Shown here piece after piece: positions 1 through 59,360 of a stretch of DNA of 64,000 bases. The stretch spans positions 806,001 to 870,000 of the forward strand of contig BPGT01000002.1 of assembly GCA_026003175.1 (NCBI GenBank), given 5' to 3'. Position numbers and translations under genes: made by a program. The first letter of the stretch is position 1. Every line of letters starts with the position of its first letter. Under the pieces are notes generated by a model, which ran no database searches, was not told the DNA's origin, and saw only the letters and a list, made by a program, of their open reading frames with translations. The DNA comes from Armatimonadota bacterium. Its GTDB lineage: Bacteria > Armatimonadota > HRBIN16.

Positions 1-1017
1 TCGGGATGCGGCATTAGCGTGGACTTCTCCCCCGACGGCAAGACGCTGCTGGTCAGTGGAGGCGAGAAAGGGCTCGTGCTGGTGAACGCAGACGGTTCCG
101 GAAGCCAGCTTCTGCCAAACACGAAGGGTGCCGGATATGCTCTCTGGAGTCCAGACGGGCGTTACATCCTGTACGGACGCACGGACTGGATGGGTAACCG
201 CGACCGCTCGAAAGTGTTCCTCTACGACTTGCGCACCAAATCCGCCCGTGCTTTGCCGGGATACCTCTCCCCGCCCTACACCTTCAGCGACGACAGCAGG
301 CAGGTGGTGGCATGGGATAAGGAGAAAGCGTGCCTGGTGTGGTTAGATGTGTCCTCTGGCGACAGGTTGCTCGAAGTAGCCTGTCCTGTGACCCCACAAA
401 ACACCCGACTACACTGGCTGCCTGACCGATATGGGGTTGCCTTTATGGCACAGGGAGAAAAAGAAGGCATAGATGTGTATACGGTAGAGGCAGGCAAGGT
501 GTACCGCATCAGCACCACCGGTGATGTGATAGGTTTGGGGCTATCACCGGACGGCAAGCAGTTACTCTGGGCACGGCAAACAGGATACGACACGAACGCT
601 ACCGTGACCACCTTTGCCTACGACCTGGACACCCGAAGCGTGAAAAAGCTTCCCTTGCAGGTGTCGGTGCGCGACCTGGCGCGTGCGACCTTGCCTCGCG
701 GTGCGAAAACCTTTGCCAGGGTGCAGTTCTCACCGGACGGTGAGGCGGTCGTCCTAATGGTCGCAGCAAGGTATGAAGAGAAGGAACTGCCTCTCTACCA
801 GAAGGTTTTCGTATTGCCCACGTCCGGCGGGCGGTCGGTAAGGGTGTTCAGTGTCCAGAGCAACGAGCTCCTGGTAGATGTAGCTTGGTCGCCCAACTCG
901 GAGCAGATGACGTTGCTAACACTCCGGGGCGAAAAGAACATGCAGGTAGAAGAAACCCGATTGCGCCTTCGGGTCGCACGCCCGGACGGCTCCCGGAGGT
1001 GGATGGTCGACCTGTAG
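1..1017 (+). CDS. TolB/WD40-like beta-propeller protein, 5'-truncated by the window
   Basis: The reading frame is open from base 1, so the gene begins upstream; the first usable start inside the window is GTG at 19. Repeated blades carry the FSPDG / WSPDG / LSPDG / WSPNS motif of TolB-type PD40 propellers, spaced through the whole 330+ residues. Such domains normally form a six- or seven-bladed propeller used for protein-protein contact. No catalytic domain follows; the protein ends after the last blade. A strong hairpin lies 7 bases after the stop. Substrate or partner cannot be told. The missing N-terminus could hold a signal peptide or another domain. Confidence 0.8.
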   Translation, partial: SGCGISVDFSPDGKTLLVSGGEKGLVLVNADGSGSQLLPNTKGAGYALWSPDGRYILYGRTDWMGNRDRSKVFLYDLRTKSARALPGYLSPPYTFSDDSRQVVAWDKEKACLVWLDVSSGDRLLEVACPVTPQNTRLHWLPDRYGVAFMAQGEKEGIDVYTVEAGKVYRISTTGDVIGLGLSPDGKQLLWARQTGYDTNATVTTFAYDLDTRSVKKLPLQVSVRDLARATLPRGAKTFARVQFSPDGEAVVLMVAARYEEKELPLYQKVFVLPTSGGRSVRVFSVQSNELLVDVAWSPNSEQMTLLTLRGEKNMQVEETRLRLRVARPDGSRRWMVDL

Positions 1018-22236: not shown

Positions 22237-22288
22237 GCTACAAAAGTTAGAACATCACCATCGGGATTCCTGTTTTGCTCGGTAGATT

Positions 22289-22474
22289 GAGGGTGTTCGA
22301 GAATTGTTGAGAAGTTGGTTGTAGCGCAAGGAGAGAGGCGTTCTTGCTATCCCTGCCTTACCTCACCCCCGTCCCCTCTCCTACGAGGAGAGGGGCGTTC
22401 CCCCTTCCCTTGCAGGGAAGGGGGCAAGGGGGTTAGGTTATCTATCCATTTAACCAGCAATTTCGAACACCCTC
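22289..22474 (+). mobile_element. 186-bp non-autonomous inverted-repeat element (MITE-like), copy A
   Basis: Bounded by the 12-bp terminal inverted repeat GAGGGTGTTCGA (22289-22300) / TCGAACACCCTC (22463-22474) and flanked by a perfect 9-bp target duplication CGGTAGATT (22280-22288 and 22475-22483). Inside are two strong hairpins: a 10-bp stem CCCCTCTCCT with loop ACG (22373-22395) and an 11-bp stem CCCCCTTCCCT with loop TGC (22400-22424). It encodes nothing convincing. Copy B (41855-42040) has the same length, opposite orientation and only about two mismatches. The rest of 22237-22545 holds only the promoter at 22483. Confidence 0.9.
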
Positions 22475-22482
22475 CGGTAGAT

Positions 22483-22511
22483 TTGACTTTCTTTCCTTCT
22501 GCCTGTAGAAT
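22483..22511 (+). promoter_or_regulatory. Sigma70 promoter abutting mobile element copy A
   Basis: TTGACT (22483-22488), 17-base spacer, TAGAAT (22506-22511). The first T of the -35 box is the last base of the element's right-hand target duplication. It drives the small basic-protein gene. Confidence 0.65.
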
Positions 22512-22545: not shown

Positions 22546-22647
22546 ATGCGCATACGACAGAAGGAGCTACGTCAGCGGCGCAAGCGCAAGGAGGAGAAAC
22601 AGAAAGCCGCCCGACGCGAAGCCCGAATGCGGGCAAGGCGAGTGTAA
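22546..22647 (+). CDS. 33-residue highly basic small protein
   Basis: AAGGAGG at 22532-22538, 7 bases before ATG 22546, opens a 33-codon frame ending TAA at 22645. The product begins MRIRQKELRQRRKRKEEKQK and is more than half Arg, Lys and Glu, predicted as one charged helix. It resembles tiny basic proteins near ribosomes or nucleic acids in many bacteria, but I do not recognise the family. A promoter lies 35 bases upstream. An alternative ATG at 22541 in another frame gives a longer, less regular product and has poorer ribosome-site spacing. Confidence 0.62.
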   Translation: MRIRQKELRQRRKRKEEKQKAARREARMRARRV

Positions 22648-39680: not shown

Positions 39681-41849
39681 ATGCGTGTTCGCGCACTATG
39701 GCAAATTATTGCGTTGATATTCCTTTTCAGCCTGAATGGTTACTCGGCTCCTGTGCGGTTCGCCGGTGTGCCTGTTGCAAAGCAGGCGGTGACACGACAA
39801 GAGTATCGCGATGGACAGGTGCTGGTAAAACTGCGTCCCCAGTTTGTCAAGGCAGTGCAAAACGCTCTGTCTCCAGCCTCAACGCGCCCGGTTCTTGCTG
39901 AAGCCATGCAACCCGTTCTGGACGGGATCCCACAGCTTGCAGGAGCGCGCGTAGAGCGCACTATCGAGCGAATCGGCTGGGCGGTGGTACGCTTGCCGCA
40001 AGGCGTATCAGTTCCGCGTGCGGTGGATCTGCTCAGAAAGCGACCGGAGGTGCTCTGGGCAGAGCCGAATTATATCGTGCGCCCCCTGCTCCCCGAGCCC
40101 AACGATCCGAGGTTCCATGAGTATGACACGGGCAAAATCTCCGGCATCCCCAATCTGTATCCCTATCTCTGGGACATGCTGATTATTCAGGCGTACGAGG
40201 GCTGGCAGATTTACCCGAACCGCTACTACACCGCCGCCAACAAGCCACGTGACGCCATTCGAATAGCGGTTATCGACAGCGGCATAGACCCCGACCATCC
40301 CGATTTCAAGAACGCTGGCGGAACCAGCACCGACTCGCGCTACGGCGGGCAGATAGACTGGACGTTGGGATGCAGTATCTTCGGCGGTGTGTACGATTCC
40401 GACTTTACCGATGAATTAGGACACGGCACGCATGTAGCGGGCATCGCTGCAGCCGCGGCGAACAACGGCGAAGGCGTTTTCGGTGTGGCATACAATGCCC
40501 AGCTTGTGCCCATCAAGATTGTGGACGCGACAGGCAGCGGGGAAGATGCCGACCTGGTGGAAGCCATCATCTACTGCGCGGACAACGGCATTCCCGTGAT
40601 TAACATGAGTCTGGGTACCACCAGCTATCCGCAAATTCTCGCCGATGCGGTGAACTACGCCTACTACAAGGGGTGCATCCTCATCGCAGCAGCGAACGAA
40701 TCAGGCAACGGTGGCGGGAATATCGGCAACATCTATCCCGCCGCCAATAGCAAGGTGCTGGCGGTTTCGCCGACTGGTATCCTGGATGATTTCCCAGAGG
40801 CGCTCTACGCAGGTACTGGCGACTATATCGGCATCAGTGCGCCGGGTGGTAGCCTGTTGTGGGTAGAAGACGACGATGGCAATCTGTGGCCCGAGGCATT
40901 CACCATCTACTCCACAGCCCCAAGCTACCCAGTGCCCCTGCCCGATGCTTTCGGAGAACAGTTCTACATGTACGGCTATCAGATTGGCACTTCTATGGCA
41001 ACTCCCCACGTATCGGGGCTGGCGGCGCTGTATGCGGAGTACAAAGGATTTACCGTGAACACGCCCGGCGGCAACCTCGCGACCTGGCGGGCTATCCAGC
41101 GCGGGGCAGATAACGCGCAGCAACGTGCGGATGGCGGCTGGACGCCCAGCTACGGTTTCGGGCGTATCAACGTGCGCAACACCCTGCTGGAACTCAATGC
41201 ACGCAACGCCACGGTGGGTTGTTTGTCGGGACAAGTTTACTTCAACGGCACGCCGGTACAGGGAGCGCAGATTGAAGTGCGCGCCATGGTGGGTAGTACC
41301 CGCAAAGTGACTACCGCCCAGAACTATGGGTTGTGGCGTATTCCCAACCTGCCACCCGGATACTATCGGGTGAAAGCGACCGCCTACGGCTATAGCAAGG
41401 AGTTCGAGTGGGTAGAAGTCGTTGCGGGCGCGGATACCCCCGGGGTGGATTTCTGGCTCGGTCCGGTGGACATGCAACCCGACACCACGCCACCAGAAAC
41501 ACCACAGGTGTGGGATGACGGCACGGTGCAAAGCAGCTTGACCACCCTGCACGCCCGCTGGTGGAGCCGTGATTTAGAGACAGGTATCTTCCGCTATGAG
41601 GTAGCCATCGGCACCACGCCCGGCGGCACCGACGTGATGGGCTGGACAAGCGTGGGAGTGCGCACCGAAGCCACCTTCAACGTGAGCCTGGCGCATGGCA
41701 AGACCTACTATGTCGCCGTGCGCGCGGTGAACGGAGCGGGTTTAACCAGCGCAACGGGAGTATCGGATGGCATCCGGGCGCAGATCCCCATCAACCCACC
41801 GACCCAGCGCCCAAGGGGAGGCGGAAGGCGACCGGTAACCACCCGATGA
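39681..41849 (+). CDS. Secreted subtilisin-like protease with C-terminal carboxypeptidase-regulatory and fibronectin-like domains
   Basis: 722 residues with a signal peptide (IIALIFLFSLNGYSAP). A fervidolysin-like propeptide (DGQVLVKLRPQF, WAVVRLPQGV, WAEPNYIVRP) precedes the S8 domain with Asp199 (VIDSGIDPDHPDF), His248 (GHGTHVAG) and Ser438 (GTSMATPHVSG). After residue 510 comes a CarboxypepD_reg-like fold (LSGQVYFNGTPVQGAQIEV, GYYRVKATAYGY), then a beta-sandwich ending in a Pro/Arg-rich tail. It is exported, probably for protein degradation outside the cell. The stop TGA (41847-41849) lies inside the left target duplication of mobile element copy B, which inserted 5 bases beyond it. Confidence 0.93.
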   Translation: MRVRALWQIIALIFLFSLNGYSAPVRFAGVPVAKQAVTRQEYRDGQVLVKLRPQFVKAVQNALSPASTRPVLAEAMQPVLDGIPQLAGARVERTIERIGWAVVRLPQGVSVPRAVDLLRKRPEVLWAEPNYIVRPLLPEPNDPRFHEYDTGKISGIPNLYPYLWDMLIIQAYEGWQIYPNRYYTAANKPRDAIRIAVIDSGIDPDHPDFKNAGGTSTDSRYGGQIDWTLGCSIFGGVYDSDFTDELGHGTHVAGIAAAAANNGEGVFGVAYNAQLVPIKIVDATGSGEDADLVEAIIYCADNGIPVINMSLGTTSYPQILADAVNYAYYKGCILIAAANESGNGGGNIGNIYPAANSKVLAVSPTGILDDFPEALYAGTGDYIGISAPGGSLLWVEDDDGNLWPEAFTIYSTAPSYPVPLPDAFGEQFYMYGYQIGTSMATPHVSGLAALYAEYKGFTVNTPGGNLATWRAIQRGADNAQQRADGGWTPSYGFGRINVRNTLLELNARNATVGCLSGQVYFNGTPVQGAQIEVRAMVGSTRKVTTAQNYGLWRIPNLPPGYYRVKATAYGYSKEFEWVEVVAGADTPGVDFWLGPVDMQPDTTPPETPQVWDDGTVQSSLTTLHARWWSRDLETGIFRYEVAIGTTPGGTDVMGWTSVGVRTEATFNVSLAHGKTYYVAVRAVNGAGLTSATGVSDGIRAQIPINPPTQRPRGGGRRPVTTR

Positions 41850-41854
41850 GCGTT

Positions 41855-42040
41855 GAGGGTGTTCGAAATTGCTGGTTGAATGGATAGATAACCTAACCCC
41901 CTTGCCCCCTTCCCTGCAAGGGAAGGGGGAACGCCCCTCTCCTCGTAGGAGAGGGGATGGGGGTGAGGTAAGGCAGGGATAGCAAGAACGCCTCTCTCCT
42001 TGCGCTACAACCAACTTCTCAACAATTCTCGAACACCCTC
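41855..42040 (-). mobile_element. 186-bp non-autonomous inverted-repeat element (MITE-like), copy B
   Basis: Same element as copy A (22289-22474) in reverse orientation, with TIR GAGGGTGTTCGA / TCGAACACCCTC and the same two internal hairpins. It is flanked by a perfect 9-bp duplication ATGAGCGTT (41846-41854 and 42041-42049). Only about two mismatches separate the copies, so movement was recent. The left duplication preserves the subtilase stop codon and the right one preserves the -35 box of the next gene. Confidence 0.9.
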
Positions 42041-42048
42041 ATGAGCGT

Positions 42049-42078
42049 TTGACATTTGGTGGATAAAAAGCGTATACT
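42049..42078 (+). promoter_or_regulatory. Sigma70 promoter abutting mobile element copy B
   Basis: TTGACA (42049-42054), 18-base spacer, TATACT (42073-42078). The first T of TTGACA is the last base of the element's target duplication, the same register as at copy A. Confidence 0.75.
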
Positions 42079-42111: not shown

Positions 42112-42864
42112 ATGAGAACGCGATTCATGACCTGGCTCGTGGCAGGAGCGGTGTTGCTCGCCAGCATACCCAGCCACGCGCAGGACATACAGACCATTCT
42201 GAACAAGGTAGCCGCTGCCTACAAGAGCGCAAAGAGCTATCAGGCTCAAGCATCGTTGACTGAGACAGTTCGGATGGGTGGACAGCAACAGAAGCGGTCG
42301 AGCACCATCTCCACGAAGTACAAAGCCCCGAACAAAATGGTCACCGTCGTTCAGGGCAATGAAAACCTGCAGATTTACAGCGACGGAAAGACGATGTATA
42401 TCTACTCCCCGAAGAACAAGGAGTACGTGAAGATGCCAGCTCCTGCTTCCTTTGCGCAGATGGCGGGTATGAGTGGAGTTGGCTCGGGTGACCCGTCGCA
42501 GATTGGCGCGCAGCTTCAGGCGATGTTCGCCAGCGGTGGTAAGAAGCTGCCCGACCGGAACATTGGGGGCAAGCCGGTGTTCGTTCTCCAATCTACACGT
42601 TCGGGGCAATCGCAAGATGGAAAAAGCTCGTTCAATATGACCGCAACCGCCTTCATTGACAAGGCAACCTACATGTTGCGCCGGCTTACGCTTGAAGCCA
42701 CCCAGAGTCAAGGAACTCAGAAGGTAGCACAGACTATAAACATCATCTTTGCTTCGCAACAGATTAACCCCAACCTGCCGGACTCGGTTTTTGCTTTCAA
42801 GCCGCCTGCTGGAGCGAAGGAGAGAACGACGCAAACGCCGCCCGGAGGGCCCGCGCCGAGATAG
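42112..42864 (+). CDS. Exported LolA-like / DUF2092-type lipoprotein-handling domain protein
   Basis: 250 residues with a signal peptide (MTWLVAGAVLLASIPSHAQ). The mature part starts DIQTILNKVAAAYKSAKSYQAQASLTE and continues with beta strands (STKYKAPNKMVTVVQGNENLQIYSDGKTMYIYSPKNKEY), the pattern of the LolA/LolB half-barrel families. It may carry lipid or lipoprotein in the periplasm, though DUF2092-type members are uncharacterised. AGAAGGAGTAAGG precedes ATG 42112. Single gene behind its own promoter. Confidence 0.8.
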   Translation: MRTRFMTWLVAGAVLLASIPSHAQDIQTILNKVAAAYKSAKSYQAQASLTETVRMGGQQQKRSSTISTKYKAPNKMVTVVQGNENLQIYSDGKTMYIYSPKNKEYVKMPAPASFAQMAGMSGVGSGDPSQIGAQLQAMFASGGKKLPDRNIGGKPVFVLQSTRSGQSQDGKSSFNMTATAFIDKATYMLRRLTLEATQSQGTQKVAQTINIIFASQQINPNLPDSVFAFKPPAGAKERTTQTPPGGPAPR

Positions 42865-57373: not shown

Positions 57374-58168
57374 CTATGCCTTCTTGCGTCGGAGCAGTGC
57401 CAGTGCGGGCACCCCGCTCAGGAACAGCATCCACGTGGAGGCATCGGGAATGACCGACGCAAACACCACGAAGTCCTGATAATCTCCGTCGAATGAGGTG
57501 CTCTCCACCGTCATGTCCTCTACCCCGATGTAATACGACTGGTTCTTCACCACCTCAAAGAAAGCGAAGTGCTGAACCAACTTGTCCGCTGTCTTCGTGT
57601 TCAGACCGGACTCCGAGAACCAAGCCCACTTGGCCGTGCCGGGGTTGGCCTTATCCTCCGTCGCCAGATACCAGCCGAAATCCGTCCACGGCGGGGTGAA
57701 GGTTTTAATAGCACCTGCGGTGTCACCACCAACGAACAGACGCACGTGGTCTGCCGACGAAGCGGTGAGCAGGGTATTCTTGTTGACCGCCACGCCTTTC
57801 TTGTAGATGCCGAAGTAGTTGTAGTCATCCAGCCCTGCCACCTCGATGCGGATAGCCGCCCAGTTGGGGTCGGTGGAGGTGAAGTAGATGCTCAAATCTC
57901 CAGCCGAAGAGCTGCCAACGTATGGGTAGGCTACGCCAGGACCAGTACCGCCAGTAAAAGCACCGGTATTGGTCAACCAGTTACCGATGTTGCCAGGCTT
58001 GGTAAAGTCCTTGGAGTTGCCATCCCAGTAGGGGTCGCCATTTTCATCGGCATCTGCTGCTACCCAGCTTTGCGTGGTGCTGACACTGGGCTGCAACGTC
58101 AACGCCTGGGCAGTGCCTACTGCCAGTGCCAAACCAGCTACCAGCACGAACAGTACGAACCTTTTCAT
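57374..58168 (-). CDS. Secreted protein with a PEP-CTERM-like sorting tag (IPDAST variant), copy 1
   Basis: Start ATG 58168 after AAAGGAGGG; a longer open frame upstream is spurious because it includes the promoter. 264 residues: signal peptide MKRFVLFVLVAGLALAVGTAQA, a beta-rich mature domain with many aromatic and Asn/Thr residues (FTGGTGPGVAYPYVGSSSAG, AAIRIEVAGLDDYNYFGIYKKG), then the C-terminal IPDAST motif, a hydrophobic helix and RRKKA. That tripartite tail is the layout of exosortase substrates, with Asp-Ala in place of Glu-Pro. A sigma54 box lies 63-78 bases before the ATG, matching that of the exosortase operon. Copy 2 follows upstream in tandem. Probably anchored or secreted with the exopolysaccharide; ligand unknown. 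Confidence 0.82.
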   Translation of the reverse strand: MKRFVLFVLVAGLALAVGTAQALTLQPSVSTTQSWVAADADENGDPYWDGNSKDFTKPGNIGNWLTNTGAFTGGTGPGVAYPYVGSSSAGDLSIYFTSTDPNWAAIRIEVAGLDDYNYFGIYKKGVAVNKNTLLTASSADHVRLFVGGDTAGAIKTFTPPWTDFGWYLATEDKANPGTAKWAWFSESGLNTKTADKLVQHFAFFEVVKNQSYYIGVEDMTVESTSFDGDYQDFVVFASVIPDASTWMLFLSGVPALALLRRKKA

Positions 58169-58230
58169 TCCTTTCCCTCCTTTTCGCAGTTTTCTGGGGG
58201 CTGCGAGTCCCCCTTCCACCCTATATATAA

Positions 58231-58246
58231 TGCAAGAAGCGTGCCA
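58231..58246 (-). promoter_or_regulatory. Sigma54 promoter of PEP-CTERM-like copy 1
   Basis: On the minus strand TGGCACGCTTCTTGCA, an exact match to TGGCACG-N4-TTGCW, followed by TATATATAGGGTGG. Predicted start near 58221 gives a leader of about 53 bases, the same as at 10401. The remainder of 58169-58559 holds the two hairpins of copy 2 and no gene. Confidence 0.85.
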
Positions 58247-58421
58247 CAGGCGGGACACCGTAACCTTAGCAAGTGAATTTTTATGAAAAATTGTCGGAGT
58301 TGACTTGATATATTGCCTGTAATGGATGGTGTAATACATTGCAAGCAGATCAAGGTGACAGATGGAGGCATACTCATCATCAGGGGCGAAGCAATCTCCC
58401 GTTTTACCGGACTGCGTAACC

Positions 58422-58472
58422 CCTAAAACAAAATGCGCCGATAGGCAGTTTCTCACTGCAGCACGGCGCATT
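58422..58472 (-). terminator. Intrinsic terminator of PEP-CTERM-like copy 2
   Basis: On the minus strand AATGCGCCG pairs with CGGCGCATT (58432-58472), with an inner CTGCAGT/ACTG pairing, followed by TTTTGTTTTAGG. The internal bases TGCTGCAG and CTGCCTAT are shared with the hairpin after copy 1. Confidence 0.75.
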
Positions 58473-58519
58473 CTTACAGGTTGGAGTTCTGTTTAGCCGG
58501 TCTGTTCTCGGAGGGGAAG

Positions 58520-58547
58520 AGACCTGCGATGGGCACGCCGCAGGTCT
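58520..58547 (-). terminator. Hairpin directly after PEP-CTERM-like copy 2
   Basis: AGACCTGCG (58520-58528) pairs with CGCAGGTCT (58539-58547), 12 bases past the stop. It is the positional equivalent of the hairpin after copy 1 but with different stem sequence. Confidence 0.5.
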
Positions 58548-58559
58548 TCCCGTGGTCAC

Positions 58560-59360
58560 CTATCCTTTCCGACGGCGCAACAGCGCCAGTGCGGGCACCC
58601 CGCTCAGGAACAGCATCCACGTCGAGGCGTCGGGAATGACCGACGCAAACACCACGAAGTCCTGATAGTCTCCGTCGAATGAGGTGCTCTCCACCGTCAT
58701 GTCCTCTACCCCGATGTAATACGACTGGTTCTTCGCCACCTCAAAGAAGGCGAAGTGCTGAACCGTCTTGTCCGCTGTCTTCGTGTTCAGACCGGACTCC
58801 GAGAACCAAGCCCACTTGGCCGTGCCGGGGTTGGCCTCGTCCTCCGTCGCCAGATACCAGCCGAAGTCCGTGCCACGGCGGAGTGAAGGTCTTGAGTAGC
58901 ACCTGCGGTGTCACCACCGACGAACAGGCGCACGTGGTCTGCCGACGAAGCGAGTGAGCAGGGTATCCTTGTTGACCGCCACGCCTTTCTTGTAGATGCC
59001 GAAGTAGTTGTAGTCATCCAGCCCTGCCACCTCGATGCGGATGGCCGCCCAGTTCGGGTCGGTGGAGGTGAAGTAGATGCTCAAATCTCCAGCCGAAGAG
59101 CTGCCAACGTATGGGTAGGCTACGCCAGGACCAGTACCGCCAGTAAAAGCACCGGTATTGGTCAACCAGTTACCGATGTTGCCAGGCTTGGTAAAGTCCT
59201 TGGAGTTGCCATCCCAGTAGGGGTCGCCATTGTTGCATCGGCAATCTGCTGCTACCCAGCTTTGCGTGGTGCTGACACTGGGCTGCAACGTCAACGCCTG
59301 GGCAGTGCCTACTGCCAGGATTAAACCGACAGTCAACGCGAACAGAATTGATTTCTTCAC
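58560..59360 (-). pseudogene. PEP-CTERM-like protein copy 2, broken by several single-base insertions
   Basis: Nearly the same protein as copy 1: GTG 59360 after GGAGGGACAG, signal peptide, shared mature domain, and the tail IPDAST...LLRRRKG ending at 58560. Relative to copy 1 there are three extra bases at 59231-59255 (frame kept) and single extra bases near 58953, 58894 and 58872. The last three throw about 27 codons out of frame with a stop, after which the original frame returns. Promoter, signal peptide, tag and terminator are all intact. Either a recent pseudogene or a poorly called stretch. Confidence 0.75.

Follow-up and report, generated by a model that had tools for sequence, protein, structure and literature searches.

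Insertion of a MITE and an IS5-group element at a fixed register of promoter -35 boxes in an Armatimonadota genome

What brings two copies of a mobile element, lying in opposite orientations, to the same base of a promoter -35 box? The question is raised by a 64,000-nucleotide stretch of an Armatimonadota genome (C2:806001-870000, hereafter the window), which carries two copies (A and B) of a 186-bp MITE with the following surroundings.

22280..22288, no strand: left target duplication of copy A, 9 bp, CGGTAGATT, read from the sequence
22289..22474, + strand: copy A of the 186-bp MITE, with ends GAGGGTGTTCGA...TCGAACACCCTC, 99% identical to copy B
22475..22483, no strand: right target duplication of copy A, CGGTAGATT, ending on the T that opens the -35 box
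22483..22511, + strand: promoter A, TTGACT-17-TAGAAT, downstream of copy A, present without the element in nine congeners
22546..22647, + strand: small basic ORF, MRIRQKELRQRRKRKEEKQKAARREARMRARRV, read from promoter A, in a region conserved in 10/10 genus genomes
41846..41854, no strand: left target duplication of copy B, 9 bp, ATGAGCGTT, read from the sequence
41855..42040, - strand: copy B of the MITE, 99% identical to copy A
42041..42049, no strand: right target duplication of copy B, ATGAGCGTT, ending on the T that opens the -35 box
42049..42078, + strand: promoter B, TTGACA-18-TATACT, downstream of copy B, present without the element in congeners
42112..42864, + strand: gene of 250 aa read from promoter B, with a secreted-type N-terminus and orthologues of 71-82% identity in eight congeners

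The -35 and -10 boxes of promoter A lie at 22483-22488 and 22506-22511 (spacer 17), and those of promoter B at 42049-42054 and 42073-42078 (spacer 18). These coordinates confirm what the sequence-only reading of this DNA had noticed, namely that the two copies, in opposite orientations, share one register on the -35 box. The element is classified as a MITE: it is short and non-coding, is present in about 100 copies in the 4.1-Mb genome (7 contigs), and has its terminal repeats, GAGGGTGTTCGA, and its target register in common with an insertion sequence (IS) described below. Elsewhere in the window, 57374-59345 holds a pair of tandem blocks separated by about 1,188 bp and 89-99% identical (families D1-D4).

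Both promoters are older than the insertions, since congeners carry them without the element (at least seven congeners in the case of promoter B). For example, congener G179 reads through insertion point A as CTTGCTCGATGGATT joined to TGACTTTC, where the present genome has TTTGCTCGGTAGATT, the MITE, and then CGGTAGATT joined to TGACTTTC. These empty-site orthologues support, at both window sites, the earlier proposal that the duplication rebuilds the promoter.

The 18-base left end of the MITE has at least 97 exact matches in the genome, and 101 copies were read, most of them with some 3 kb of flanking DNA at either end. With the copies that abut another element and those with repeated flanks set aside, 72 remain, of which 62 have an exact duplication (9 bp in 49, 10 bp in nine, 11 bp in three, and 12 bp in one). 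In 52 of these 62 copies, in either orientation of the element, the final base of the duplication is also the first T of TTGAC, which stands beside the right end in 35 and beside the left end in 17. At the background frequency of TTGAC in the same DNA (0.00079 per position and strand), only about 0.1 copies are expected to show this by chance. The binomial log10 p is about -135, a value calculated on copies that are not strictly independent, those in duplicated DNA (e.g. L018) having been removed only in part; the flanks nevertheless vary between insertion sites. The comparison of the flanks of all copies, which had been proposed as a check, thus did not yield random flanks, and the suggested targeting of -35 boxes is strongly supported as far as the fixed register is concerned. 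That insertion takes place at a fixed -35 register may be regarded as practically certain.

In duplications of more than 9 bp, the register is usually kept on the TTGAC side; therefore, one cut appears to be fixed and the other variable. The base following TTGAC, the sixth of the box, is A in 43, T in 16, C in two, and G in none of 61 targets. The sites lacking TTGAC often retain TTG at the register together with a strong -10 box (7/16 with -10, p 0.02), and the degenerate boxes found there are TTGTGT, TTGCCT (twice), TTGCGA, TTGCGC, and TTGCAT.

The targets have the properties of promoters. A -10 box at 16-18 bp, scored with E. coli-like weights set by hand, is present in 53/60 target flanks but in only 8/60 far flanks of the same insertions, which serve as an internal control; similarly, it is present in 54/61 target flanks versus 51/749 other TTGAC occurrences in the same loci. 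The spacing to TAnnnT among the 61 targets is 17 in 27 and 18 in 22. With genes called by our own script, 60/60 sites are intergenic, and 54 face the start of a gene on the same strand at a median distance of 95 nt. Among the intergenic TTGACW occurrences with a same-strand gene no more than 350 nt away, those bearing the element are 49 with and five without a -10 box, while the free ones are 15 with and 17 without (OR 11, p 1.6e-5). The bare TT/TGAC motif, offered earlier as an alternative to -35 boxes, is thus insufficient, because the -10 box matters too. Conversely, when a strong -10 box is given, the ratio of element-bearing to free sites is 37:16 for TTGAC, 5:20 for other TTG, and 9:79 for the rest. 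On the largest contig, C1, 23 of 100 TTGACW-16..18-TAnnnT sites, among those listed, abut an element, and the pattern occurs 290 times versus 41 times for its reversed form, so that about 14% of the sites are expected by chance. From these two figures, roughly a quarter of the real consensus promoters on this contig carry the element.

The MITE is probably mobilised by an IS5-group element of about 1.0 kb located elsewhere in the genome, as suggested by the ends and the target that the two have in common and by the existence of joint MITE-IS units. This IS is 1,012 bp long, has short terminal inverted repeats GAGGGTGTTCRAAAAATC and a direct target duplication, mostly of 9 bp, and encodes a DDE_Tnp_1 transposase of 326 aa; it is present in four intact copies and in five with a common 23-bp deletion in the transposase gene. 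The transposase scores 30.9 bits against PF01609 (cut-off 23), and 5/5 aligned homologues match DDE_Tnp_1. D123, D202, E260, and K267 are invariant in the alignment and are the putative catalytic residues, while the classical Y(2)R(3)E(6)K signature lacks its Y at the expected place. The best-scoring of NCBI's curated IS5 subgroup models, NF033579, gives 39.1 bits, far below its cut-off of 140, and the element is therefore named only as 'IS5 group', with no subgroup. An AlphaFold model of the transposase, built on three sequences, has a pLDDT of 44, which is too poor for a search for domains that might bind sigma or the polymerase.

The five copies with the 23-bp deletion (L085-L089) lie at different sites. 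Judging from this spread, the defective form is mobile, and both it and the MITE have presumably been moved in trans. A programmed frameshift had been considered for the split of the transposase at residue 83/84 in five copies and was rejected, the common deletion of about 23 bp being found instead.

As the target survives insertion, one promoter can receive the element repeatedly. Tandem MITE arrays with 9-bp duplications between the copies are found at L013, L024, L039, L070, L072, L075, and L078, and MITE-9 bp-IS units at L060 and L074. Some MITE dimers appear to have moved as units, since those with CGTGTCCGT or GTTCCATCT at the inner position are found at several sites. Such joint units, of the form MITE-TCGAGCTCT-IS, lie at L060:3063-4246, L074:3001-4184, and L064:3039-4245, and their inner 9 bp, TCGAGCTCT, is the same as the duplication of a single MITE at L069. 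Some joint units likewise appear to have moved whole, since they have an outer duplication of their own, as at L074 (tttccctct before TTGACA). An array of four MITEs at L022:2992-3735 differs from the others in that its inner junctions, spaced 185-187, are without the normal right end and duplication.

Homologues of the transposase are found in 18 of 291 genomes of the phylum, including the present one. A scan of genome contigs with a single transposase query gave no matches, and an alignment-based scan gave 13 loci that mostly bear the name Armatimonadota or Fimbriimonadales, together with some unplaced assemblies. These named relatives are metagenome assemblies, and the present genome may be one too. 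More distant homologues are ISAae1 of Aquifex and those on Thermus plasmids, and none was found in the viral contigs and phages searched. Congener G184 has nine insertions with a duplication, one of 186 bp and eight of IS size or larger; in all nine, TTGAC is found where the duplication ends, and in eight there is a -10 box. The 186-bp element with the duplication ggaaaacct is found at the same promoter in two species (L264 of G184 and L034 here), which may reflect either an old shared insertion or transfer. The pattern is also seen in four genomes of another Armatimonadota family, f17. There, TTGAC lies at positions 7-12 for 27 of the 59 distinct element ends, which corresponds to about one TTGAC per insertion, because each insertion has two ends; few copies can be paired with an exact duplication, and most of those keep only a degenerate box. 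ISAae1 (L279:1402-2411) has a 9-bp duplication that ends on the first T of TTTACA-16-TATACT, and this single site hints that the register trait may be older than the Armatimonadota. The Thermus homologue (L280) was set aside; it has different ends and no TTGAC at the duplication.

Comparison of these sequences demonstrates the register, its one-sidedness, its dependence on both the -35 and -10 boxes, and repeated insertion at one site. Our overall reading, which we hold to be probable, is that the IS5-group transposase mobilises itself and the MITE and targets sigma70 promoters upstream of the -35 box. In this mechanism, a divergent DDE transposase from the IS would mobilise its own element, the deleted copy and, in trans, the MITE, and insertion would occur directly upstream of the -35 box. 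On one strand, the fixed cut would separate the two Ts of TTGAC(A/T); the opposite strand would be cut 9 bp, or in some cases 10-12 bp, further upstream. Repair would then duplicate the stretch between the cuts, leaving the promoter with its -35 and -10 boxes.

As to how the promoter might be recognised, the balance tips barely, if at all, towards a promoter to which RNA polymerase-sigma70 is bound, so that sigma region 4, seated on the -35 box, would determine where insertion occurs, and away from bare TTGAC. Guidance by the polymerase is favoured because two boxes read by sigma70 and separated by 17 bp are involved and because no mirrored half-site is seen: a preference for one would be expected of a symmetric transposase dimer that recognised nothing but DNA, and no motif was found on the far-side flank of the insertions examined. 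Against it, the match to TTGAC is stricter than most promoters of this genome show. Such strictness would be predicted if the transposase itself read TTGAC(A/T) to one side of the cut, the association with the -10 box then reflecting accessible, weakly constrained DNA just upstream of promoters. This direct reading, which we consider tenable but somewhat improbable, would also account for the strict TTGAC in 52/62 copies, for the strong preference for TTGAC even among promoters with a strong -10 box, and for L062, where TTGAC stands at both ends of the duplication. It is, however, at odds with the much rarer use of gene-facing intergenic TTGACW without a -10 box (OR 11), with the several degenerate -35 sites that keep their -10 box, and with the lack of a mirrored half-site. 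The phenomenon itself is accepted under both polymerase guidance and direct reading.

Two further explanations concern selection and function. The insertions are survivors, so that selection shapes the observed sites, and the fact that all of them are intergenic indicates that selection does act. Near-random insertion followed by purifying selection that left only the elements just upstream of -35 boxes is nevertheless scarcely credible: it cannot produce a single-base register in 52/62 copies, which contradicts it as a full explanation, many other harmless intergenic positions are on offer, and full-length IS copies of another species show the same register. It also seems very unlikely that the MITE is retained at promoters because its hairpins insulate or tune them. 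The RNA fold of the element is indeed very stable (-98 kcal/mol, z -8), and it is the right end that adjoins the promoter in 41 cases and the left in 19, a twofold difference (p 0.006). However, no intrinsic terminator was found at either window copy, and a co-directional upstream gene is as common at promoters with the element (28/59) as at free ones (15/32; OR 1.02), which leaves the earlier suggestion that the hairpins separate the promoter from upstream transcription unsupported. Moreover, at both window sites the promoters of congeners lack the element, and the register is shared by IS copies that do carry a transposase.

The nearest named relative of the IS in the IS5 family is ISAae1 (Aquifex aeolicus plasmid ece1), which shares DDE_Tnp_1 (32% identity over 83%), has ends, GAGCCTGTTGAAAAAATC, that resemble GAGGGTGTTCRAAAAATC, and likewise makes a 9-bp duplication. 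The titles and abstracts listed in the literature searches contain no account of an IS, the ISAae1 group included, that targets -35 boxes. The ISAjo2 group of the IS1202 family inserts next to dif, 5 bp away from its XerC site, and contact of the transposase with the bound protein has been proposed (PMC10132070). It resembles the present elements in seeking sites beside the binding site of a host protein, but is not kin to them and differs in its Tn7-like transposase, 5-bp duplication, fixed orientation, and dif targets, whereas here the target is a promoter and both orientations occur. The yeast retrotransposons Ty1 and Ty3 insert upstream of transcribed genes under the guidance of the transcription machinery, RNA polymerase III (PMC5911963), and similarly find a safe haven in a compact genome; they act through an integrase and RNA polymerase III and have no kinship to the present element. 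Two papers describe IS5 upstream of E. coli operons as activating or building promoters at individual loci (PMC2753651, PMC11894529). As described there, an IS5-group element likewise lies upstream of promoters, while here the native promoter is unchanged and the register is genome-wide.

Near-neutral landing sites would account for about 100 copies in a gene-dense 4.1-Mb genome, and where uncultured bacteria lack transcription data, the insertion sites would provide a natural map of their -35 boxes. To our knowledge, base-exact finding of sigma70 promoters would be a new kind of target choice among bacterial insertion sequences, and it raises the question of how the transposase finds promoters. 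If the transposase is guided by the polymerase, this would be a bacterial counterpart of Ty3 targeting, and would tie transposition directly to the initiation of transcription in bacteria.
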